64,000 nt of DNA from Rhizobium album (lineage in GTDB: Bacteria > Pseudomonadota > Alphaproteobacteria > Rhizobiales > Rhizobiaceae). Below, in pieces: positions 1 through 17,839 of this stretch. The notes under the pieces are model-generated. The model worked only from the letters and a program-made list of their open reading frames with translations. It did no database searches and had not been told where the DNA came from. The stretch lies in the NCBI RefSeq assembly GCF_003122325.1, contig NZ_QFBC01000004.1, positions 62,001-126,000 of the forward strand, written 5' to 3'. Both the position numbers and the translations under genes were made by a program. The number at the start of each line of letters is the position of its first letter. The first letter of the stretch is position 1.

Positions 1-926
1 GGCTGGCGGGCGCCGAAGAGGGTTTCGGCCAGAGCGGTCTTGCCGACGCCGACGAGACCGGTGATGACCACCACCTCGCCATCGCCGAGCGTCAGGGAGA
101 AGGGCCGGGAATTGGCCGCCAGCTGCAGGTTTTCCGCCTTGAGCACGGGCGCCGTGGCCGTCTGCACGACGATTTCGCCGGCGCTGACCTTCTTGCCGAG
201 CATGGCGTTGACGGCACCTTCGTAATCCAGCTCCGGACCTTCGAAGACACCGGTGATGCGGCCGTCGCGCAGGCTGACGATGGTATCGGCCAGCCGGCGG
301 ATATCGGACATGCGATGCGATATATAAAGTATGGCGACGCCGCGGGCGCGCAGGCGCTCGACTACCTCGAACAACCGGTCGGCTTCGGCCGATGACAGCG
401 AGGAGGTTGGCTCGTCGAGGATCAACACCTTCGGCTCATGCGCCATGGCGCGGGCAATCGCCACCATCTGCCGGTCGGCAAGCGAAAGATCGGTGATGCT
501 GGCGGAAAGATCGATGCTCAGCCCCATGCGGTCGGCGACGGCCTTGGCCTCGCGACGGACGCGGCGGGGATTGAAGATCAAGGGGGCGCCCTTGCCGTTC
601 AGGCGATCGAGCGTCAGGTTCGTCGCGACATCGAGATCGGCGACGACGCCGTCATTGATGTTCTGGTGCACGGTGACGACGCCGGCTCGAATGGCCTCGG
701 CGGGGGTCGAGGGCGCAAAATCCTTGCCGGCCAGCGTGATACGGCCCGCATCCCGGTCATAGACGCCGCTGACGATACGGACGAGCGTGGATTTGCCGGC
801 ACCATTGGCACCCATGAGCACGGTGACCGCACCGGCACGCAACTCCAGATCGACGCCGCCCAACACCTGGACCGGCCCGAACGACTTGCGCAGATCGTCT
901 ACGCGGAAAACCGCCTCTTGCACCAT
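1..926 (-). CDS. Sugar ABC transporter ATP-binding protein (RbsA/XylG type), 3' end outside window
   Basis: About 308 residues of an import ATPase are visible. The first domain has a Walker A motif GANGAGKST (about residues 39-47), a C-loop-like LSLADRQM and a Walker B VLILDEPTSSLS. A second, diverged Walker A (GLVGVGKTALAE) begins at the cut edge, so this is the tandem-ATPase form used by ribose, xylose and galactose importers. The start ATG at 926 has a strong GGGAGGAG ribosome site. It is divergent from mtnK with an inverted repeat between them, so the importer probably supplies the substrate of the mtnK operon. Permease and binding-protein genes would lie to the left. The substrate (methylthioribose or a related pentose) is inferred from context only. 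Confidence 0.9.
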   Translation of the reverse strand, partial: MVQEAVFRVDDLRKSFGPVQVLGGVDLELRAGAVTVLMGANGAGKSTLVRIVSGVYDRDAGRITLAGKDFAPSTPAEAIRAGVVTVHQNINDGVVADLDVATNLTLDRLNGKGAPLIFNPRRVRREAKAVADRMGLSIDLSASITDLSLADRQMVAIARAMAHEPKVLILDEPTSSLSSAEADRLFEVVERLRARGVAILYISHRMSDIRRLADTIVSLRDGRITGVFEGPELDYEGAVNAMLGKKVSAGEIVVQTATAPVLKAENLQLAANSRPFSLTLGDGEVVVITGLVGVGKTALAETLFGARQ

Positions 927-963
927 ATGCTCCTCCCGTATCGTCATCTAGGACGGCATCTAA

Positions 964-990
964 TCAAATGTCAAGCCCATTGACATTTGA
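964..990. promoter_or_regulatory. 11-bp inverted repeat in the divergent ABC transporter/mtnK promoter region
   Basis: TCAAATGTCAA (964-974) and TTGACATTTGA (980-990) are perfect inverted copies separated by GCCCA. A second dyad, GACAG-AATG-CTGTC, overlaps it at 989-1002, and TTGACA occurs twice (980-985, 987-992). The position between two divergent transcription units suggests an operator for a repressor or activator encoded outside this window. The regulator family cannot be named from the site. Confidence 0.6.
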
Positions 991-1072
991 CAGAATGCTG
1001 TCCTACGAAAAGAAATATCAAGGCGTGCCGCGTCCCCGATTGCCGCATGCCACGACGGGAGGAATAAGACAA

Positions 1073-2335
1073 ATGAGCGTATTCGAGGCATTGAATGCCG
1101 AGACGCTGCCGGTGCGCCTCGGCAGCAACCAGGCCCTCACGGATCGTATCGGCGAAGACACCGGCAGCTGGAAGGTACGCGAAGTCGGCGACGGCAATTT
1201 GAACCTCGTCTTCATTGTCGAGGGCTCCAGGGGCAGCGTCATCGTCAAGCAGGCGCTGCCTTATGTGCGTCTCGTCGGCGAGAGCTGGCCGCTGCCGCTG
1301 AAGCGGTCCTATTTCGAATATCATGCGCTGGTGCGCCAGGCGGAGCGCGATCCCGGCATGGTGCCGGACGTGCTGTTCTTCGATCGCGAACAGGCGATTA
1401 TCGTCATGGAATTCCTGACGCCGCACATCATCCTGCGCCGCGCGCTGATCGAAGGCCAGCAGCTGCCGCGCATCGCCTCCGATCTCGGGCTGTTCCTGGC
1501 GCGCACGCTGTTTCGCGGTTCCGACCTTGCGATGGAGACGCGCAAGCGCAAGGAAGACGTGGCGCTGTTTGCAGACAATGTCGAACTCTGCGACATCACC
1601 GAAAACCTCGTCTTCTCCGATCCCTATTACGAAGCCAAGCTGAACCACCATACGACGCCGCAGCTCGACGGCATCGTCGCGGAGCTGCGCGCCGACCGCG
1701 ACCTGAAGGTCGAGGCGCAGCGGCTGAAGCACCTGTTCGCCGCCAATGCCGAGACGCTGCTGCACGGCGACCTGCACACCGGTTCCGTCATGGTCACGCC
1801 GCAGGAAACCAAGGTCATCGATCCGGAATTCGCCTTCTACGGGCCAATGGCCTTCGATGTCGGCATGCTGCTGGCCAATTTCTGGATGGCCTATTTTTCG
1901 CAATCCGGCCATGAAAAGGACGGCGACCGCGAGAGCATGCGCGAATACCTGCTCGATGTCGTCATCGATATCTGGGATGTCTTCCGCGACGAATTCGCCC
2001 GCCTGTGGCGCAACGAGCGCAAGGGCATTCTCTACCAGGCCGCCCTCTTCGAAGACCGCGGCGACAGCCTGGGCGCTGAACAGGCCCTCGATGAAGTGCT
2101 GCAATCGATCTGGGTCGACATGCTCGGGTTTGCCGGTGTCGAGATGCACCGCCGCATCCTCGGCCTCGCCCACAATGCCGATTTTGAAACCATCGCGGAC
2201 GCCGACCAACGCGCCCGTTGCGAAACCAAGGCGCTCAAGCTCGGGCGCCACCTCGCCGTCAACCGCCGCAAGATCCACAGCGTGGCTGAGATCAATGCGC
2301 TGGCCGAACGGCTCGAACAGGAGATAGTCGCTTGA
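1073..2335 (+). CDS. mtnK: S-methyl-5-thioribose kinase (MtnK)
   Basis: The protein has 420 aa and the aminoglycoside-phosphotransferase-like kinase fold. Family features include an N-terminal [11 protein letters not shown] nucleotide-binding segment, the catalytic loop [14 protein letters not shown] (near residue 230) and the metal-binding [16 protein letters not shown]. MtnK phosphorylates 5-methylthioribose at C1 with ATP in the methionine salvage pathway, in the cytoplasm. The ATG at 1073 is preferred over an in-frame start 35 codons upstream because GGGAGG sits 9 nt before it and the longer start would overlap the operator dyads. The stop codon overlaps the mtnA start by four bases. Some MtnK enzymes also accept 5-deoxyribose, so the natural substrate is not certain. 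Confidence 0.92.
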
Positions 2336-3426
2336 AAGTCGGAGATCGCCACTACCGCACCATCTGGCTGAACGAAGACGGCCGTTCCGTCGACGTCATC
2401 GACCAGCGCTGGCTGCCCCACGAATTCCGCGTCGTGACGCTGAAAACCCTCGACGATGTCGCCGTCGCCATCCGCGACATGTGGATCCGCGGCGCGCCGC
2501 TGATCGGCGTCACCGCCGCCTACGGCGTCGCCATCGCCATGCTCTCGGATGCGAGCGACGAAGCGCTGGACGCCGTCTGGGAGGTTCTGCACGAAACCCG
2601 GCCGACCGCCATCAACCTGCGCTGGGCGCTGGACGAGATGCGCACGTTCCTGCGCAAGGTGCCGGTGTCCGACCGCGCCGCAGCCGCCTACAAAAAGGCC
2701 GGCGAAATCGCCGAGGAAGACATCCAGCTCAACCGCTCGATCGGCGCCAACGGCCTGAAGGTGATCCGCGAGATCGCCGCCCGCAAGAAGCCGGGCGAGC
2801 CGGTGAACATCCTCACCCATTGCAATGCCGGTTGGCTGGCGACCGTCGATTACGGCACCGCCACCGCGCCGATCTACATGGCGGTCGAGGACGGCATCAA
2901 GGTCCACGTCTATGTCGACGAGACCCGCCCGCGCAACCAGGGCGCCCAGCTGACCGCCTGGGAGATGAACGGCCACGGCGTGCCGCACACGCTGATCGTC
3001 GACAATGCCGGCGGCCACCTGATGCAGCATGGCGACGTCGACATGGTGATCGTCGGCACCGACCGCACCACGGCGAACGGCGACGTCTGCAACAAGATCG
3101 GCACCTACCTCAAGGCGCTCGCCGCCAAGGACAACAACGTGCCCTTCTACGTCGCCCTGCCCTCGCCGACCATCGACTGGACGGTGCATGACGGCGTCAG
3201 GGAAATCCCGATCGAGGAGCGCAACAGCGACGAGGTGACCTTCGTGCAGGGGCGCAACGGCGACGGCTCGATTTCGACGGTGCGCGTCTCGCCGGAGGGC
3301 AGCCCGGCCGCCAACCCGGCCTTCGACGTCACCCCGGCCCGCCTGATCACCGGCCTCATCACCGAGCGCGGCATTGCAAAAGCCTCGCCCGAAGGCCTGA
3401 AAGACATGTTCCCCGAACGGAGCTGA
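2332..3426 (+). CDS. mtnA: Methylthioribose-1-phosphate isomerase (MtnA)
   Basis: The protein has 364 aa, the usual length of the family related to eIF2B alpha. It shows the hallmark segments [16 protein letters not shown] (catalytic Cys), [18 protein letters not shown] and [19 protein letters not shown] (catalytic Asp). It converts methylthioribose-1-phosphate to methylthioribulose-1-phosphate, directly after MtnK. The start is TTG within a TTGA overlap with the mtnK stop, which indicates translational coupling. MtnA homologues also isomerise 5-deoxyribose-1-phosphate, so the same caution about substrate applies. Confidence 0.93.
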
Positions 3427-3430
3427 ACCC

Positions 3431-4366
3431 ATGACCCTCTCGAACCAGCAGAAGACGGAAGACGTCGCCGCCGGCATTCGCAAGCGCGTCTTCCTGCATA
3501 CGATGCGCAACAATGGCGGCTATCTGAGCCAGGCCTGCTCGGCGGCGGAAAGCCTCGCCTTTCTCTACAACGAAGCGCTGAAACTCGGCGAACCGACGCT
3601 GCCCAAGGTGCCGCTGCCCTTTGCCGGCGCGCCCTCGGCGCACAATCCGGATGCCTTCACCGGCGCCGGCTACCACGGCCCCTTCGCGCCGGAATACGAC
3701 CGCTTCATCATCTCGCCGGCGCACTACGCCCTCGTCATCTATTCCGCCCTCATCCAGATGGGCCGGATGGACGAGCATGCGCTCGACCATTTCAACCGTG
3801 ACGGCGGCTCGGTCGAGATGATCGGCGCCGAGCACAGCCCCGGCATGGAAGTGACGACGGGTTCGCTGGCGCAGGGTCTCTCCATGGCCGCCGGCGTCGC
3901 CTGGGCGCGCAAGAAGAAGGGCGAACCCGGCAAGGTCTGGGTCTACATGTCGGACGGCGAATTCCAGGAAGGCCAGACGTGGGAATGCCTGGCGGCAATG
4001 AGCTACCACGGCATCGACAACATCCGCGTCGTCGTCGACGTCAACCGCCAGCAATGCGACGGAGCCATGTCCTCGGTGCTCGACCTCGGCGATCTTCCGG
4101 CCCGCGTCTCCTCCTTCGGCGTCACCTGCCGCTCCATCGACGGGCACGACCTCGACGCCTTCCGCACGGCGGCCGAAAGCGCCGAGCCTGGCAAGCCGCT
4201 GATCATCCTCGCCAACACCTCGCCCTTCCAGGGCATGGAATTCCTCAAGAAGCGGTTCCCGCGGCTGCACTACGTGCGCTTCAAATCCGCCGAGGAACGC
4301 CAGGAAATGCAGACCGCCATCGCCGCCGAACTGGGCGTCGACGAAGCCGAAATCGCGAGGGCCTGA
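3431..4366 (+). CDS. Split transketolase, N-terminal (TPP-binding) subunit
   Basis: This 311-aa protein corresponds to the first domain of transketolase only. It has the thiamine-pyrophosphate motif SDGEFQEGQTWE followed by the Asn of VVDVNRQQCDG, and the upstream GAEHSPGMEVTTGSLAQGLS block typical of the family. The second half is encoded by the next gene, 2 bp downstream, so the two should form a heteromer. Transketolases move a two-carbon ketol unit between sugar phosphates. Lying between mtnA and a RuBisCO-like gene, it probably acts on a product of the methylthioribose branch rather than in the general pentose phosphate pathway. That role is inference. Confidence 0.88.
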   Translation: MTLSNQQKTEDVAAGIRKRVFLHTMRNNGGYLSQACSAAESLAFLYNEALKLGEPTLPKVPLPFAGAPSAHNPDAFTGAGYHGPFAPEYDRFIISPAHYALVIYSALIQMGRMDEHALDHFNRDGGSVEMIGAEHSPGMEVTTGSLAQGLSMAAGVAWARKKKGEPGKVWVYMSDGEFQEGQTWECLAAMSYHGIDNIRVVVDVNRQQCDGAMSSVLDLGDLPARVSSFGVTCRSIDGHDLDAFRTAAESAEPGKPLIILANTSPFQGMEFLKKRFPRLHYVRFKSAEERQEMQTAIAAELGVDEAEIARA

Positions 4367-4368
4367 TC

Positions 4369-5370
4369 ATGGTCGAAATCGTCAACCGTCCCTATGCCAA
4401 GGCGTTCGAAACATTCGCCACGGCCCGTCCCGAAGTGCTCTGCCTGTCCGCCGACCTGACCTCGTCCTGCGAGGTCGACGGCTTTCGCGACCGGCACCCG
4501 GAGCAGTTCCTGTCGCTCGGCATGGCCGAGCAGAACATGCTGTCCTTTGCCGGCGGCCTGGCGATGCAGGGCTATCGCCCCTTCATCCACACCTTCTCGG
4601 TGTTCCTCTATCGCCGGCCTTACGACCAGCTGATCAATTCCATCGCCTATTCCAACCGCAAGGTGCGGATGATGGGTTTCCTGCCGGGCATCGCCACGCC
4701 GGGCGGCATCACCCACCAGGCGATCGAGGACATCTCGGTGATGCGCGCCATCCCGAACATGACGATCCTCGAATGCGGCGACGCCACCGAAGTGGAAACC
4801 GTGCTCGACGTCGCTGACAGCGTCAACGGCCCGGTCTATGTCCGCGTGCTGCGCGGCGAGGTGCCGCGCCTGTTCTCGACGCCCTTCGAACTCAACAAGC
4901 TCAGGACGCTGAGCGAAGGCGACGACGTTTTGGTCGTCACCTCGGGCATCTGCACGGAAGAAGCGTTGCGCGCCGCCGAACCGTTGAAGAGCCGCGGCAT
5001 CGGCATCCACCACCTGCACGTCTCGACCCTGAAACCCTTCGACCGTGACGGCCTGATCAAGGCCGCCAGGGGCAAGAAGGGTGTCGTGACGCTGGAGAAC
5101 CACACGATCAACGGCGGCCTCGGTTCTCTGGTGGCGGAAATCCTCGCCGAAGAAGGGCTGGGCGTGAAACTGCGCCGCCTCGGCCTGCAGGACACTTTCG
5201 CGCACGGCGCCTCGAAACCCTACCTGATGAAGAAGTACAAGCTGGATGCCAGCGCCCTGGTGGCGGCCATCGGCGACGTGCTGGGCAAGGCGCTCGATAT
5301 CGACGATGCCGAACTGGAGGCCGTGCGCCTCGACACCGTGCATTCGGCACAGAAGGCGGAGGCACTGTGA
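4369..5370 (+). CDS. Split transketolase, C-terminal (pyrimidine-binding) subunit
   Basis: This 333-aa protein carries the pyrimidine-binding and C-terminal domains of transketolase. The LGMAEQNMLSFAGGLAMQGY segment contains the Glu that activates the thiamine ring; THQAIEDISVMRAIPNMTI and the C-terminal GGLGSLVAEILAEEG are also typical. The ATG at 4369 starts 2 bp after the N-subunit stop, whereas longer in-frame versions would lie inside the upstream gene. The stop overlaps the next start (TGATG). Separate N and C subunits are known in bacteria and archaea, but the association with MTR salvage genes is notable. Confidence 0.88.
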   Translation: MVEIVNRPYAKAFETFATARPEVLCLSADLTSSCEVDGFRDRHPEQFLSLGMAEQNMLSFAGGLAMQGYRPFIHTFSVFLYRRPYDQLINSIAYSNRKVRMMGFLPGIATPGGITHQAIEDISVMRAIPNMTILECGDATEVETVLDVADSVNGPVYVRVLRGEVPRLFSTPFELNKLRTLSEGDDVLVVTSGICTEEALRAAEPLKSRGIGIHHLHVSTLKPFDRDGLIKAARGKKGVVTLENHTINGGLGSLVAEILAEEGLGVKLRRLGLQDTFAHGASKPYLMKKYKLDASALVAAIGDVLGKALDIDDAELEAVRLDTVHSAQKAEAL

Positions 5371-6494
5371 TGACACGCTTTTCCGTTACCTACTGGGTCG
5401 GCGCCAACGACGAGGCGGAAGCCCGCCAGCGGGCGCTCGACATCGCGCTGGAACAGACCGTCGAGATCCCGCGCGATGCGGTTCCGGCCGGTTACGTCGA
5501 GGACGAAATCCTCGGCAAGCTGGAAAGACTGGAACCGGCGAGCGACGGCCGCGGCGGTTTCTTCGCTGACATCTCCTATAGCGAAGACGATGTCGGCGGC
5601 GATTTCCTGCAGCTGCTCAACATCATCTTCGGTAATTCCTCGATCAAGACCAACATCCGCGTCGAGGACATCACGCTGTCGCCCGGCATTCTTTCGCTCT
5701 GCGCCGGCCCACGCTTCGGCATGCCGGGCCTGCGCGAGCTCTGCGGCGTCGACAAGGGTCCGCTGCTGATGTCGGCGATCAAGCCGGTCGGCCTGTCCAG
5801 CAAGGAACTCGGCAAGCTGGCCCATGATTTCGCCCTCGGCGGCATGGACTTCGTCAAGGACGACCACGGGCTGGCCGACCAGCACACCTCGCCCTTCGCC
5901 GAGCGGCTGAAGGCCTGCGTCGACGGCGTCAACGAAGCGAACGCCAAGACCGGCGGCAAGGCCACCTATGTGCCGAACATCACCGCTCCGGCGATGAAGC
6001 TGTTCGAACGCGCCTGGATGGCCAAGGAACAGGGCGCCGGCGGCGTGATGATCGCACCGGCGCTGGCCGGCTACGACGTGATCCACAGCCTCGCCGCCGA
6101 TCCCGATTTCGGCCTGCCGATCGTTTCGCACCCGACCTTTGCCGGGCCGAACATGATCACGCCGACGACCGGTTTCTCGCATCGGTTCTATTTCGGCCTC
6201 TTGCAGCGGCTGATGGGCGTCGATGCCGTGGTCTATCCGAATTTCGGCGGCCGCTTCGGCTTCACGCTGGCCGAATGCCAGTCGATCGTGCGCGGCTGCC
6301 AGGCGGAGTTCGGTGGCTACAAGCCGATCGTACCGGCGCCGGGCGGCGGCATGAGCCTTGCCCGCGTACCCGAAATGCGCGACGCCTATGGCGACCGGGT
6401 GATGTACCTCATCGGCGGTGCGCTGATCCGCGAACGGGACAATCTCGCCGACGCCAGCCGCCGGCTGGTCGATGCGGTGCGCGCCGAAGACTGA
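5370..6494 (+). CDS. RuBisCO-like protein (form IV)
   Basis: The 374-aa protein has the RuBisCO large-subunit barrel: AIKPVGLSSKELGKLA with the conserved Lys, and GGMDFVKDDHGLADQ with the carbamylatable Lys. The residue after KDD is His where true RuBisCO has the metal ligand Glu. The loop-6 lysine region is replaced by YPNFGGRFGFT, and the phosphate loops read APGGGMS and IGGALI. It should therefore not fix CO2. Form IV proteins studied elsewhere act as enolases or isomerases on methylthioribulose phosphate, or on apionate-derived phosphates. After mtnK and mtnA, isomerisation of methylthioribulose-1-phosphate is the simplest guess. ATG 5370 is chosen over GTG 5367 because GGAGG lies 7 nt before it. 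Confidence 0.88.
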   Translation: MTRFSVTYWVGANDEAEARQRALDIALEQTVEIPRDAVPAGYVEDEILGKLERLEPASDGRGGFFADISYSEDDVGGDFLQLLNIIFGNSSIKTNIRVEDITLSPGILSLCAGPRFGMPGLRELCGVDKGPLLMSAIKPVGLSSKELGKLAHDFALGGMDFVKDDHGLADQHTSPFAERLKACVDGVNEANAKTGGKATYVPNITAPAMKLFERAWMAKEQGAGGVMIAPALAGYDVIHSLAADPDFGLPIVSHPTFAGPNMITPTTGFSHRFYFGLLQRLMGVDAVVYPNFGGRFGFTLAECQSIVRGCQAEFGGYKPIVPAPGGGMSLARVPEMRDAYGDRVMYLIGGALIRERDNLADASRRLVDAVRAED

Positions 6495-6515
6495 TAGGGG
6501 TTCTGGCTCTTCTTG

Positions 6516-6556
6516 AGACCGGAGGATTGCCGTTTGCCACGGCCGTTCTCCGGTCT
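6516..6556 (+). other. Hairpin-forming inverted repeat after the RuBisCO-like gene
   Basis: AGACCGGAG (6516-6524) and CTCCGGTCT (6548-6556) are perfect inverted copies, with a shorter GCCG/CGGC pair inside. It lies in the 116-bp gap before the cupin gene. There is no T-tract after it, so it is a weak terminator candidate or a processing or stability hairpin that sets the cupin gene apart from the operon. Confidence 0.4.
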
Positions 6557-6610
6557 ATGTATGTCGGTACGCCCCACCGCCTGCTGCGGCAAAACCCGAA
6601 GGAACAGAAC

Positions 6611-7009
6611 ATGGATATCAAGAGCGCCAAGGACCGCCCGGCACGTGCCGCCTCGAAGGATCATTTTACCGGCGCCGTACAGATCACACCGGTGATCGAA
6701 GCGGAAGCGCCGGCCCGGCTTCGCGCCGCCAGCGTGCATTTCCCGGCCGGCGCCCGCACGGCCTGGCATACCCATCCCCTGGGGCAGACCCTGCTGGTAA
6801 CCGAAGGCCGCGGCCTGGCGCAACGCTGGGGCGGACCGGTGCGGTCGCTTGAGGCCGGAGACGTGGTCTGGTTTGCGCCGGGCGAAAAACACTGGCACGG
6901 GGCTGCGCCCGACAGTGACATGACACATGTCGCCATGCAGGAAGCGCTGGATGGCAAGGTGGCCGACTGGATGGAATTGGTCACGGATGCGGAGTATGGC
7001 GCCGGCTGA
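6611..7009 (+). CDS. Small cupin protein (bacterial hydroxynitrile-lyase-like cupin family)
   Basis: A single-domain cupin of 132 aa. The first cupin motif includes FPAGARTAWHTHPLGQTLLV (metal-binding HTH...Q), and the second contains WFAPGEKHWHGAAP with the third His. The end LDGKVADWMELVTDAEY is typical of the small cupin family that includes bacterial manganese hydroxynitrile lyases and many uncharacterised proteins. The start has AAGGA just upstream. It follows the RuBisCO-like gene on the same strand after a 116-bp gap with a hairpin. A link to the MTR operon is possible, since a cupin works after a RuBisCO-like protein in Rhodospirillum, but this is not shown by sequence. Confidence 0.75.
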   Translation: MDIKSAKDRPARAASKDHFTGAVQITPVIEAEAPARLRAASVHFPAGARTAWHTHPLGQTLLVTEGRGLAQRWGGPVRSLEAGDVVWFAPGEKHWHGAAPDSDMTHVAMQEALDGKVADWMELVTDAEYGAG

Positions 7010-7067
7010 TCGTCAGAACAATATCGGTTCGTGGTTATGCCGCCTGTAAGGCGGGCAAACACAAGCC

Positions 7068-7307
7068 CTATTTGTCTTCGACCTCGACCTCCGGGCGGTC
7101 GCCGCCCTCGACGCTCTCGCGGTGCCACCTGCCGTCGCTCGACTGATAATCGATTTCGGCATCCTGACCGCCGACCTGTTGTTTCGCCGCCGCCTGCTTG
7201 GCCGCCGCCAAGGCGGAATCATGTGTGGGGAAAGGTTCGGACCAGACGTCACCCAGCCTGTAGGCCCAGCCGCCATCGTGCTGGGCGATATGATATGTAA
7301 TCTGCAT
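7068..7307 (-). CDS. DUF2188-like small protein
   Basis: This 79-aa protein has a short N-terminal strand-rich part and the segment FPTHDSALAAAKQAAAKQQ followed by IDYQSSDGRWHRE, a pattern of the DUF2188 family. No signal peptide or membrane segment is seen. The start ATG at 7307 has GGGAG 7 nt upstream. A GGAAC-N17-CGTT promoter lies 24 bp before the start, so it is probably a member of the EcfG general stress regulon. Molecular function unknown. Confidence 0.75.
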   Translation of the reverse strand: MQITYHIAQHDGGWAYRLGDVWSEPFPTHDSALAAAKQAAAKQQVGGQDAEIDYQSSDGRWHRESVEGGDRPEVEVEDK

Positions 7308-7330
7308 GCTGTTCTCCCATTCGGCCGATA

Positions 7331-7356
7331 AACGGAAAACCAGACGGGAAAGTTCC
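7331..7356 (-). promoter_or_regulatory. EcfG-type (general stress sigma) promoter for the DUF2188 gene
   Basis: On the minus strand GGAAC (7356-7352), a 17-nt spacer and CGTT (7334-7331) match the alphaproteobacterial EcfG consensus GGAAC-N16/17-CGTT. The expected transcription start is about 7-10 nt downstream, leaving a short leader before the ATG at 7307. Confidence 0.75.
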
Positions 7357-7368
7357 GCTGGAGGACGG

Positions 7369-7638
7369 TTATCGCGGCCAATAGGCGTCGGAGCGGAAAT
7401 CCGCCGGGATAGGTTTTAGGCCGGCCAGCGCTTCGGCAGCATAATTGATCTGCAGCACGAGATAACGCACCGCAGCCGGCACGGGAACGCCGGTCGCAAG
7501 ATAGCGGGTGTGCAAGCTGTCGAAGCCGGCTACCTTGACGCGGCGCCTGGCTTCGATTGTCACGTCTTCGGGCCGCGGTTCGCGCGCTGCCGGGGTGTCC
7601 TGTTCGGCCAGGCCGCCCCTGATCACCATAAAATTCAC
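7369..7638 (-). CDS. Hypothetical protein, 89 aa
   Basis: No family recognised. It is a soluble, mixed-charge protein with an Arg-rich middle (IEARRRVKVAGFDSLHTRYL) and an aromatic end (ADFRSDAYWPR). The GTG at 7638 is chosen because GGAGG precedes it by 8 nt; an ATG three codons later (7629) is the alternative. It sits between two genes with EcfG-type promoters, but no such promoter was found upstream of it. A stress-related role is only suggested by neighbourhood. Confidence 0.55.
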   Translation of the reverse strand: MNFMVIRGGLAEQDTPAAREPRPEDVTIEARRRVKVAGFDSLHTRYLATGVPVPAAVRYLVLQINYAAEALAGLKPIPADFRSDAYWPR

Positions 7639-7703
7639 CGCATCCGCCTCCGAACGTTGATGAGACGGATGATCGGAGCTTTTGCTTGTCCCGGCCTGAT
7701 GCC

Positions 7704-7729
7704 GGAACAAAACCGGCCGTGCGACCGTT
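7704..7729 (+). promoter_or_regulatory. EcfG-type promoter for the proline-rich small protein
   Basis: GGAAC (7704-7708), 17 nt, CGTT (7726-7729) on the plus strand is an exact match to the EcfG consensus. It is placed 32 bp before the ATG at 7762, and no other gene separates them. Confidence 0.75.
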
Positions 7730-7761
7730 GGAAACCATCATCCAAGATGGAAGGTTGTATC

Positions 7762-7929
7762 ATGTCCTACCCCGTGGAGCCGGTACCCGGCAATCCGATC
7801 CCACCCGTGCCGCCGCCGGCAGAACCGGTGCCGCCGATCGGCGAGCCGGAGCCTGAACGCTTGCCGGACGAGGTGCCCAATCCCAACCCGGATGAAAACG
7901 ACAGGCCGGAAAAGCGCTTGATCGCCTGA
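7762..7929 (+). CDS. Small proline-rich acidic protein, 55 aa
   Basis: About one third of the residues are proline and many others are Glu or Asp (PIPPVPPPAEPVPPIGEPE, PNPNPDENDRPEK). No fold or family is recognised and it is probably disordered. It lacks a signal peptide. ATG 7762 is used; an in-frame ATG five codons earlier (7747) is possible. An exact EcfG-type promoter lies directly upstream, which supports expression as a short stress-induced protein. The next gene, a general-stress FMN-barrel protein, has its own EcfG promoter. Confidence 0.6.
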   Translation: MSYPVEPVPGNPIPPVPPPAEPVPPIGEPEPERLPDEVPNPNPDENDRPEKRLIA

Positions 7930-7954
7930 GGAACATTGAGCGGCTTCAGCCGTT
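7930..7954 (+). promoter_or_regulatory. EcfG-type promoter for the pyridoxamine-oxidase-like stress gene
   Basis: GGAAC (7930-7934), 16 nt, CGTT (7951-7954). The first G overlaps the end of the proline-rich gene by a base or less, and the next start codon is at 7989. This fits a leader of about 25-30 nt. Confidence 0.75.
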
Positions 7955-17590: not shown

Positions 17591-17716
17591 AAAAAACGTA
17601 AAAGCCCGGCGCGGGAGGAGGATGCGCCGGGCTCTTAAACCTGGCTGACGACTGGGAGGAGGAGGTGTCATCAGCCCTATCGGGCGGCACTGGGAGGAGG
17701 AGTGCGCCGCTTCGAT
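17591..17716 (-). ncRNA. Alpha-r14 family small RNA (NfeR1/Smr14C2-like)
   Basis: On the minus strand three consecutive hairpins each expose CCTCCTCCC in the loop. Hairpin 1 pairs GGCGCACT with AGTGCCGCC (one bulge), hairpin 2 pairs GCTGATGAC with GTCGTCAGC, and hairpin 3 pairs GCCCGGCGC with GCGCCGGGC and is followed by T runs (17604-17591), making an intrinsic terminator. A TATAGT -10 box at 17728-17723 sets the 5' end near 17716. The roughly 125-nt length, three-stem layout and repeated anti-SD loops match rhizobial alpha-r14 sRNAs, which pair with ribosome binding sites of target mRNAs. Exact ends are estimates. Confidence 0.85.
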
Positions 17717-17839
17717 GATGTGACTATACACGACAATGGATTAAAAAATAGTCACTACATTGCAGTGCAGCATTGCAAATTATGCATGGCTTTTTCTTGG
17801 TGCTTGAAAGCGGAAATTTCCATCTTTATTGATTCGGCC

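Follow-up and report, generated by a model that had tools for sequence, protein, structure and literature searches.

In the genome of Rhizobium album we examined a stretch of 64,000 nucleotides, here called the window (bases 62001-126000 of the 466-kb contig C34 in a draft genome of 6.86 Mb), in which genes for methylthioribose kinase (mtnK) and methylthioribose-1-phosphate isomerase (mtnA) are followed by the two halves of a split transketolase (TKN and TKC) and by a gene for a RuBisCO-like protein (RLP). We propose, with a probability of roughly 60%, that these genes form a unit for the catabolism and salvage of 5-methylthioribose (MTR), in which the RLP prepares, and the split transketolase then cuts, 1-(methylthio)xylulose-5-phosphate (MTXu-5P). 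MTR would enter through a divergently encoded ATP-binding cassette (ABC) system and could also be supplied from methylthioadenosine (MTA) by a nucleosidase encoded elsewhere. MtnK would convert MTR to MTR-1-phosphate, and MtnA would convert this to 5-methylthioribulose-1-phosphate (MTRu-1P). By isomerizing MTRu-1P to MTXu-5P, the RLP would make a transketolase-type donor out of a ketose that carries its phosphate at the wrong end, and TKN together with TKC would cleave this donor between C2 and C3, giving glyceraldehyde-3-phosphate and a thiamine-bound methylthio two-carbon unit. The split transketolase would thereby occupy the place held by the methylsulfurylase cupin in Rhodospirillum and Rhodopseudomonas. 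From sequence we infer each of these reactions in this organism, together with the ligand of the importer, the donor of the transketolase and the fate of the methylthio two-carbon unit. The features of the window on which the proposal turns are as follows.

1073-2335, plus strand: mtnK, S-methyl-5-thioribose kinase (TIGR01767, 511 bits, above the cut-off of 275)
2332-3426, plus strand: mtnA, S-methyl-5-thioribose-1-phosphate isomerase (TTG start, 4 bp overlap with mtnK)
3431-4366, plus strand: TKN, thiamine-diphosphate-binding half of the split transketolase (gap of +4 bp; PF00456)
4369-5370, plus strand: TKC, pyrimidine-binding and C-terminal half of the split transketolase (gap of +2 bp; PF02779 and PF02780)
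5370-6494, plus strand: RLP, predicted 5-methylthioribulose-1-phosphate 1,3-isomerase (ATG start; PF00016)
947 to 3, minus strand: ATPase of a CUT2 sugar ABC importer, cut by the window edge

The gene identities, the clade to which the RLP belongs, the alternation of cupin and transketolase beside it and a dyad in front of the operon can all be read directly from the sequences. A first-pass annotation of the window, made from its letters alone, had described mtnK, mtnA, TKN, TKC and the RLP gene as lying head to tail with gaps of -4 to +4 bp, and both our own reading and family searches confirmed this. MtnA scored 444 bits with the NCBIfam equivalog model TIGR00512, above its cut-off of 279, and an alternative GTG start of the RLP gene at 5367 would give a 4 bp overlap with TKC.

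The RLP reaches the cut-off of no curated RuBisCO or RLP model. It was rejected as a RuBisCO carboxylase (best score 122.7 bits against a cut-off of 438), as the MtnW enolase (TIGR03332, 141.6 against 513.6; NF007095, 186.2 against 409) and as OiaX of the apionate pathway (NF042437, 77.6 against 700). The conserved Lys, KDDH, His and PN(F/Y)GGRF motifs expected of a DeepYkr-type RLP are present, and an alignment, made also to A1, showed the motifs KP, KDDHGLADQ, HP, PN(F/Y)GGRF and GG in common with 3qfw, which we take to be Rhodopseudomonas palustris RLP1. In a tree of 35 chosen RLPs, from which near copies and duplicates were left out and which does not include the R. palustris and R. rubrum RLPs, 31 proteins of the window's type are set apart from the four other RLPs with support of 100/100; own-genome and duplicate loci (L001, L002, L048, L111, L118 and L122) had been dropped from the RLP rows. 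Among the 31, the 15 cupin-linked RLPs make up one side of a 91/81 branch and the 16 transketolase-linked RLPs surround them. The transketolase-linked RLPs are paraphyletic in the best tree, and a single clade of them is not rejected (p-AU 0.28, with a bootstrap that had not quite settled). These results support placing the RLP in the same clade as the cupin-linked RLPs of the methylthioribulose-1-phosphate 1,3-isomerase kind.

We use the name DeepYkr for this clade because of a paper on R. palustris RLP1 (PMC5893883) and because of the common cupin context. According to that paper, R. palustris RLP1 converts MTRu-1P in vitro to MTXu-5P and 1-(methylthio)ribulose-5-phosphate in a ratio of 3:1, rlp1 and the cupin gene have successive locus numbers, and deletion of the cupin gene causes MTXu-5P to accumulate (PMC5893883). 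The window genome encodes a second RLP (L001/L004, C9:79406-80233), which is the apionate-catabolism protein OiaX (782 bits against a cut-off of 700); a frame overlapping its gene resembles, by eye, a four-carbon acid sugar kinase.

Using the neighbour of the Terrarubrum RLP as the reference methylsulfurylase-type cupin, we compared what stands beside RLPs of the window's type. Even sampling of 385 genomes of the class and 398 genomes of the phylum gave 21 such RLP loci, our own included (G036 and the weaker RLPs L070-L072 are left out of this count): a cupin stands beside 14 of them, TKN-TKC beside six and both beside none, and one locus (L077) is cut off by a contig end. The same alternation was seen across all fetched loci, where the neighbour of the RLP is a methylsulfurylase-type cupin in 15 and a split transketolase in 76, never both. 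No cupin homologue was found in any of the 84 transketolase loci, some of which represent one genome reached twice, and neither TKN nor TKC was found in any of the 16 cupin-type loci (L077 counted). Eight of the 84 are without an RLP (L126, L127, L162, L180, L183, L186, L187 and L195). Only three of the 385 class genomes have a TKC above 590 bits; all three have an RLP, and none is among the 13 cupin-type genomes. One more class genome has a match of 309 bits with two in-frame TGA codons. Six of the 398 phylum genomes have the transketolase, five of these together with an RLP. Among plasmid records, the transketolase is present in 24 (E 1e-100) and the RLP in 24 (E 1e-40), with both in 22. A distant DNA search with the TKC stretch found no match in Escherichia coli genomes. 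The first-pass annotation had suggested that the transketolase may replace or complement the last step of the Rhodospirillum route; by comparison it does stand in the cupin's place within the RLP clade, and the interpretation as a whole is partly supported.

Directly behind the operon the window has a cupin gene of its own (6611-7009), whose product matches the (R)-mandelonitrile lyase type NF049940 (178 bits against a cut-off of 140). It was considered as a methylsulfurylase and rejected on that match, the nearest solved chains being the cupins 4bif, 8oz8 and 4uxa, and none of the 36 relatives described below was found to have it. A cupin of this type in this position is readily confused with the methylsulfurylase.

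The nearest PDB sequence to TKN is 6yak, the N-terminal chain of a split transketolase, and the nearest to TKC are 6yaj/6yak. As expected of split chains, their scores of 152 (TKN) and 197 bits (TKC) do not reach the full-length transketolase cut-off of 488. TKC was also tried as a 1-deoxyxylulose-5-phosphate (DXP) synthase and rejected (TIGR00204, 171 bits against a cut-off of 466). The transketolase cofactor motif and the catalytic glutamate are kept, as DGE...N in TKN and AEQN in TKC, where we take the roles of residues to be those of yeast transketolase. The canonical SGHPG, GHPE and GEDGPTHQ, found in the genome's own ordinary transketolases (L101 and L104), are replaced by GGYLSQ, IGAEHSPG and TPGG.THQ. 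These replacements are conserved: the C-half signature GFLPG..TPGG.(T/S)HQ and the N-half signature IGAEHSPG are present in 48 of 48 sequences, and GGYLSQ in 46 of 48 (GGYMSQ in L185, GCYLSQ in L195). Read as donor-site changes, they fit a donor without a C1 hydroxyl. Three further split transketolases are encoded in the same genome (L108, L112 and L113), two of them with Tyr for His. In L073 (7149-9119, minus strand) MtnA and TKN form one open frame of 656 amino acids; this was seen once, in a draft genome.

The donor can be approached through loci in which the transketolase occurs without an RLP. Two such plasmids, Marinovum algicola pMaD5 and Paracoccus seriniphilus p420573, carry, divergent from TKN, genes for a BisC-like reductase, an FGGY kinase, a zinc dehydrogenase, a 4-epimerase homologue and a SorC regulator, with a sulfatase and an importer nearest the sulfonate family close by. 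The core of this set is repeated in L180 and L187, and L195 has TKN-TKC with a 4-epimerase and a kinase. Altogether, five of the eight RLP-less loci have a BisC-like reductase and five have an FGGY kinase with a 4-epimerase homologue. The L-ribulose-5-phosphate 4-epimerase homologues scored 245.5 and 244.9 bits against a cut-off of 251, that of L195 scored 251.5, and the Marinovum FGGY kinase reached 262 bits with the xylulokinase model (cut-off 380). The TKC of Marinovum shares 94% identity, and its TKN 86%, with the counterpart in the L181 cluster, which has mtnK, mtnA, an importer and an RLP in yet another order. In a TKC tree, built by a quick method and with long branches flagged, the starred branches require RLP presence to have changed three times or more.

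Judged by the genes present, a dehydrogenase, a kinase and a 4-epimerase could produce a 1-substituted D-xylulose-5-phosphate directly, and a 5-substituted ribose would be converted to a compound of that kind by a kinase, MtnA and RLP. On the simplest reading, the enzyme would have a single donor and the RLP would serve as a carbonyl shifter. Since the RLP-less sets could make a 1-substituted xylulose-5-phosphate, and since one TKC from such a set is 94% identical to one from an mtnK/mtnA/RLP cluster, the donor is likely to be MTXu-5P. A BisC-like reductase lies beside the transketolase in eight loci, three with an RLP (L041, L184, where only the end of the gene is on the contig, and L193) and five without (L126, L127, L162, L180 and L187); this suggests that the substituent can be an S-oxide and hence a thioether.

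The same reductase bears on the possibility that 5-deoxyribose is the main substrate, being carried by MtnK, MtnA and RLP to DXP, from which a transketolase resembling DXP synthase but running backwards would release glyceraldehyde-3-phosphate and an acetaldehyde-level unit. We regard this as unlikely. An S/N-oxide reductase homologue by the transketolase, as in these eight other loci, has no obvious use with a sulfur-free sugar, and its presence in other lineages would favour a sulfur compound over 5-deoxyribose. DXP could, moreover, enter isoprenoid synthesis without any transketolase, and the 171 bits of TKC with the DXP synthase model, which speak for a 5-deoxyribose route, are far under the cut-off. 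A nucleosidase gene in the genome is also in its favour.

If the donor is MTXu-5P, the methylthio two-carbon unit could meet one of three fates: methanethiol could be expelled and an acetyl unit left, the unit could be transferred to an aldose, or it could be released as (methylthio)acetaldehyde for a nearby dehydrogenase. Expulsion of methanethiol would have analogies in phosphoketolase, which expels water, and in sulfoacetaldehyde acetyltransferase, which expels sulfite. We put forward tentatively, as a possible though rather doubtful refinement, that the transketolase is a "methylthio-ketolase" whose enamine intermediate expels methanethiol to yield acetyl phosphate or acetate, and that elsewhere it is fed from a sulfoxide-bearing sugar or polyol; other bacteria would then feed the enzyme by way of the dehydrogenase, kinase, 4-epimerase and S-oxide reductase. 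Were this so, all five sugar carbons would pass into central metabolism and the sulfur would become methanethiol for methionine synthesis, without oxygen, cupin or reductant. The marine clusters L126 (1472-10005) and L127 (1441-11704) may possibly serve the catabolism of a sulfated, sulfoxide-bearing sugar or polyol. A Vibrio nigripulchritudo plasmid (L042, 5979-11614) carries an ABC gene, TKN, TKC, RLP and an FGGY kinase, with no MtnA.

Several findings weigh against a unit for MTR ending in cleavage of MTXu-5P. Eight of the 84 transketolase loci do without an RLP; two of these (L183 and L186) have no recognisable pathway gene adjoining, and another is in the phylum genome G691 (L162), where no RLP match was found at E 1e-40. 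Five loci with both RLP and transketolase have no MtnA in view (L042, L089, L090, L184 and L185). The change of His to Tyr, the loss of GHP and the loss of the EDG acid are partly common to the genome's own L112 and L113, so the donor-site changes are no proof of a methylthio donor. The S/N-oxide reductase model TIGR00509 is the best match of the BisC-like proteins, with scores of 901 (Ponticoccus), 810 and 845 that fall short of its cut-off of 1018, and the BisC link comes from other lineages, the reductase not having been looked for in the window genome. To these must be added that, according to PMC10986504, MtnK and MtnA also serve 5-deoxyribose compounds in E. coli, and that an aldolase conserved near the operon could split MTRu-1P directly, in which case the RLP branch would not be the sole route.

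The aldolase came to light in relatives of the window. One scan of named genomes (genome_contigs) with RLP peptide patterns gave 36 relatives, a set biased to close kin because the patterns were those of this RLP. The order of a divergent ABC gene followed by mtnK-mtnA-TKN-TKC-RLP is kept in all 36, including L039, in which four genes match in frameshifted pieces and which was left out of trees; the four plasmid relatives examined (L044, L045, L128 and L129) agree with the arrangement. The first-pass annotation had named, as an outcome that would refute its reading, homologous operons that usually lack mtnK and mtnA; this did not occur, both genes being present in 36 of 36 relatives. They are also kept across the window's family, 35 of whose 297 genomes carry the transketolase: mtnK stands beside 27, mtnA beside 28 and the RLP gene beside 30 of the 35. 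This total comprises 33 fetched loci (with RLP in 28, MtnA in 26 and MtnK in 25) and G000 and G662. One of the 35, L196, falls outside the transketolase clade and was therefore left out of the 84 loci, the trees and the signature counts. This locus (L125/L196, G056:C18) has a more distant C half, with 308.6 bits and two in-frame TGA codons. In Pelagibacterium (L037) the MtnK operon has, next door, an importer, a deaminase homologue and a phosphorylase.

In 35 of the 36 rhizobial flanks a SorC-type regulator (PF04198), a bifunctional class II aldolase/short-chain dehydrogenase, or both are found at an identity of at least 68%, either on the far side of the importer or, in two Martelella loci, immediately after the RLP gene; the flank of L010 has neither at that identity. 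In the window genome an 87% ortholog of the aldolase/dehydrogenase is encoded, together with its SorC gene, about 34 kb past the importer genes on contig C34, and by model the protein is not a rhamnose enzyme (480 bits, cut-off 568). The first-pass annotation had found no aldolase, which holds for the operon itself and fails next door, where the aldolase/dehydrogenase is conserved in relatives. This enzyme may constitute a parallel dihydroxyacetone phosphate (DHAP) shunt, for example for 5-deoxyribose, which we propose because in E. coli the two sugars are both handled by MtnK and MtnA (PMC10986504). A stronger version would make it the main route: the aldolase/dehydrogenase would cut MTRu-1P to DHAP and (methylthio)acetaldehyde and process the aldehyde, and RLP and transketolase would either recover a side product or deal with the aldehyde by thiamine-dependent removal of methanethiol, much as sulfoacetaldehyde acetyltransferase removes sulfite. 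The conservation in the flanks, the position in Martelella, the presence of the ortholog and its SorC gene on the window's own contig and the mismatch to rhamnose enzymes all speak for such a route. We nonetheless consider it improbable, since with the aldolase alone the RLP would be pointless, and since no such gene is in view in the clusters of Ponticoccus, L073 and L193, all of which have both RLP and transketolase.

Those clusters also bear on how the pathway is entered. A purine-nucleoside phosphorylase is encoded nearby in the clusters that have MtnA without MtnK (L041, L073 and L193). The Ponticoccus cluster has a phosphorylase, a BMP-family importer and an amidohydrolase nearest the TRZ/ATZ and deaminase models, all under cut-off, and L073 has a NupC-like transporter (301 bits, cut-off 442). 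The inosine/guanosine-type phosphorylases and nucleoside-type importers of some clusters would suit an unmodified pentose, in which case ribose-1-phosphate from nucleosides or ribose would be converted by MtnA and RLP to xylulose-5-phosphate for an ordinary transketolase reaction; the chemistry would be identical, with OH replacing SCH3. This seems to us very unlikely indeed, given that MtnK and MtnA are typical by model, that the donor motifs of ordinary transketolases are absent and that an S/N-oxide reductase is linked to the transketolase.

For the unit acting on MTR, an internal supply could come from the MTA/S-adenosylhomocysteine nucleosidase that the window genome encodes (TIGR01705, 330 bits, cut-off 152). 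It is one of three PF01048 matches in the genome, the others being an AMP nucleosidase and a purine-nucleoside phosphorylase, and none exceeds an MtnP cut-off. The full universal methionine salvage pathway was considered for this genome and rejected: no MtnB was found there above cut-off (best score 60.7 against 137) and no recognisable MtnD, the sole ARD match having 28.4 bits (Pfam cut-off 27), with no NCBIfam model, in a frame that reads as a small cupin.

The first-pass annotation had the operon facing a sugar ABC ATPase across a dyad, and this proved correct, the gene belonging to a CUT2 importer and the dyad being perfect with arms of 11 bp. The dyad, TCAAATGTCAA-GCCCA-TTGACATTTGA at 964-990, has an N5 spacer and 0 mismatches; the mean count in 100 shuffles was 0.00. 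Its 21-base core is exact in 31 of the 36 relatives, and the whole genome holds one perfect site. The dyad is probably the operator between importer and operon. It was tried as a SorC site and rejected, the pattern not being found in L099, upstream of the genome's own SorC gene. Three weaker sites lie elsewhere in the genome (L119-L121), with no pathway gene recognised in the adjoining frames; L119 (C8:90238) and L120 (C15:41096) are one-mismatch copies of the operator-like dyad.

The importer is complete just upstream of the window, in L003 (C34:55001-70000), where its genes are located as follows.

6418-7947, minus strand: full ATPase
5362-6417, minus strand: permease
4250-5302, minus strand: binding protein (Peripla_BP_4)

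The best sugar-importer models for the truncated ATPase frame are all below their cut-offs, and the binding protein scores low against all named sugars (52 bits with the ribose model, cut-off 337). Because both matches are under cut-off, family assignment leaves the sugar of the importer unnamed.

Comparison with known systems shows each part of the operon to be of a known kind. It resembles the MTA-isoprenoid shunt of Rhodospirillum rubrum and R. palustris (MtnP, MtnA, a DeepYkr RLP and a methylsulfurylase cupin) in its MtnA, in an RLP of the cupin-linked clade and in the predicted product MTXu-5P, and differs from it in having MtnK rather than MtnP, an importer of its own and a split transketolase in place of the adjoining methylsulfurylase-type cupin. 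With the DHAP shunt (MtnK or MtnP, MtnA and the class II aldolase Ald2) it shares MtnK, MtnA and an aldolase-dehydrogenase fusion conserved nearby; unlike that shunt, the operon ends in RLP and transketolase, and the aldolase is a separate unit and a bifunctional fusion. The first two steps are also those of universal methionine salvage (MtnK/MtnA, then MtnB, MtnW/X or MtnC, and MtnD), from which the system departs in that the RLP is not MtnW and the genome has no MtnB above cut-off or recognisable MtnD.

Split transketolases acting on unusual sugars have reportedly been described before, as the sulfofructose transketolase SqwGH and the apulose-4-phosphate transketolase AptAB. Compared by description, TKN-TKC would perform the same known trick, a two-subunit transketolase cutting a modified ketose phosphate; it differs in its predicted donor, in being linked with an RLP at 76 of 84 loci and in its own signature GGYLSQ / IGAEHSPG / GFLPG..TPGG.(T/S)HQ. 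In the open-licence literature we recognised no paper that couples an RLP with a transketolase in the metabolism of methylthioribose, a weak negative given that most subscription journals lie outside that literature. The accessible part of PMC8102628 mentions, for other organisms, a transketolase step in 5-deoxyadenosine metabolism and names no RLP in it. The combination thus appears to be undescribed in the open-licence literature searched, as does the cutting step for methylthioribose.

If the proposal is true, methylthioadenosine/methylthioribose salvage would have one more branch in addition to the universal route, the isoprenoid shunt and the DHAP shunt, a branch found chiefly among rhizobia and related bacteria. 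This would explain the need for an RLP, which would place the carbonyl where a transketolase can cut, it would predict a biological source of methanethiol, and it would assign a role to pairs of genes whose present annotations read "DXP synthase N-terminal domain" and "transketolase C-terminal domain".

Finally, elsewhere in the window, an ar14 alphaproteobacterial small RNA is found at 17597-17720 on the minus strand (Rfam RF02344, 107.8 bits).

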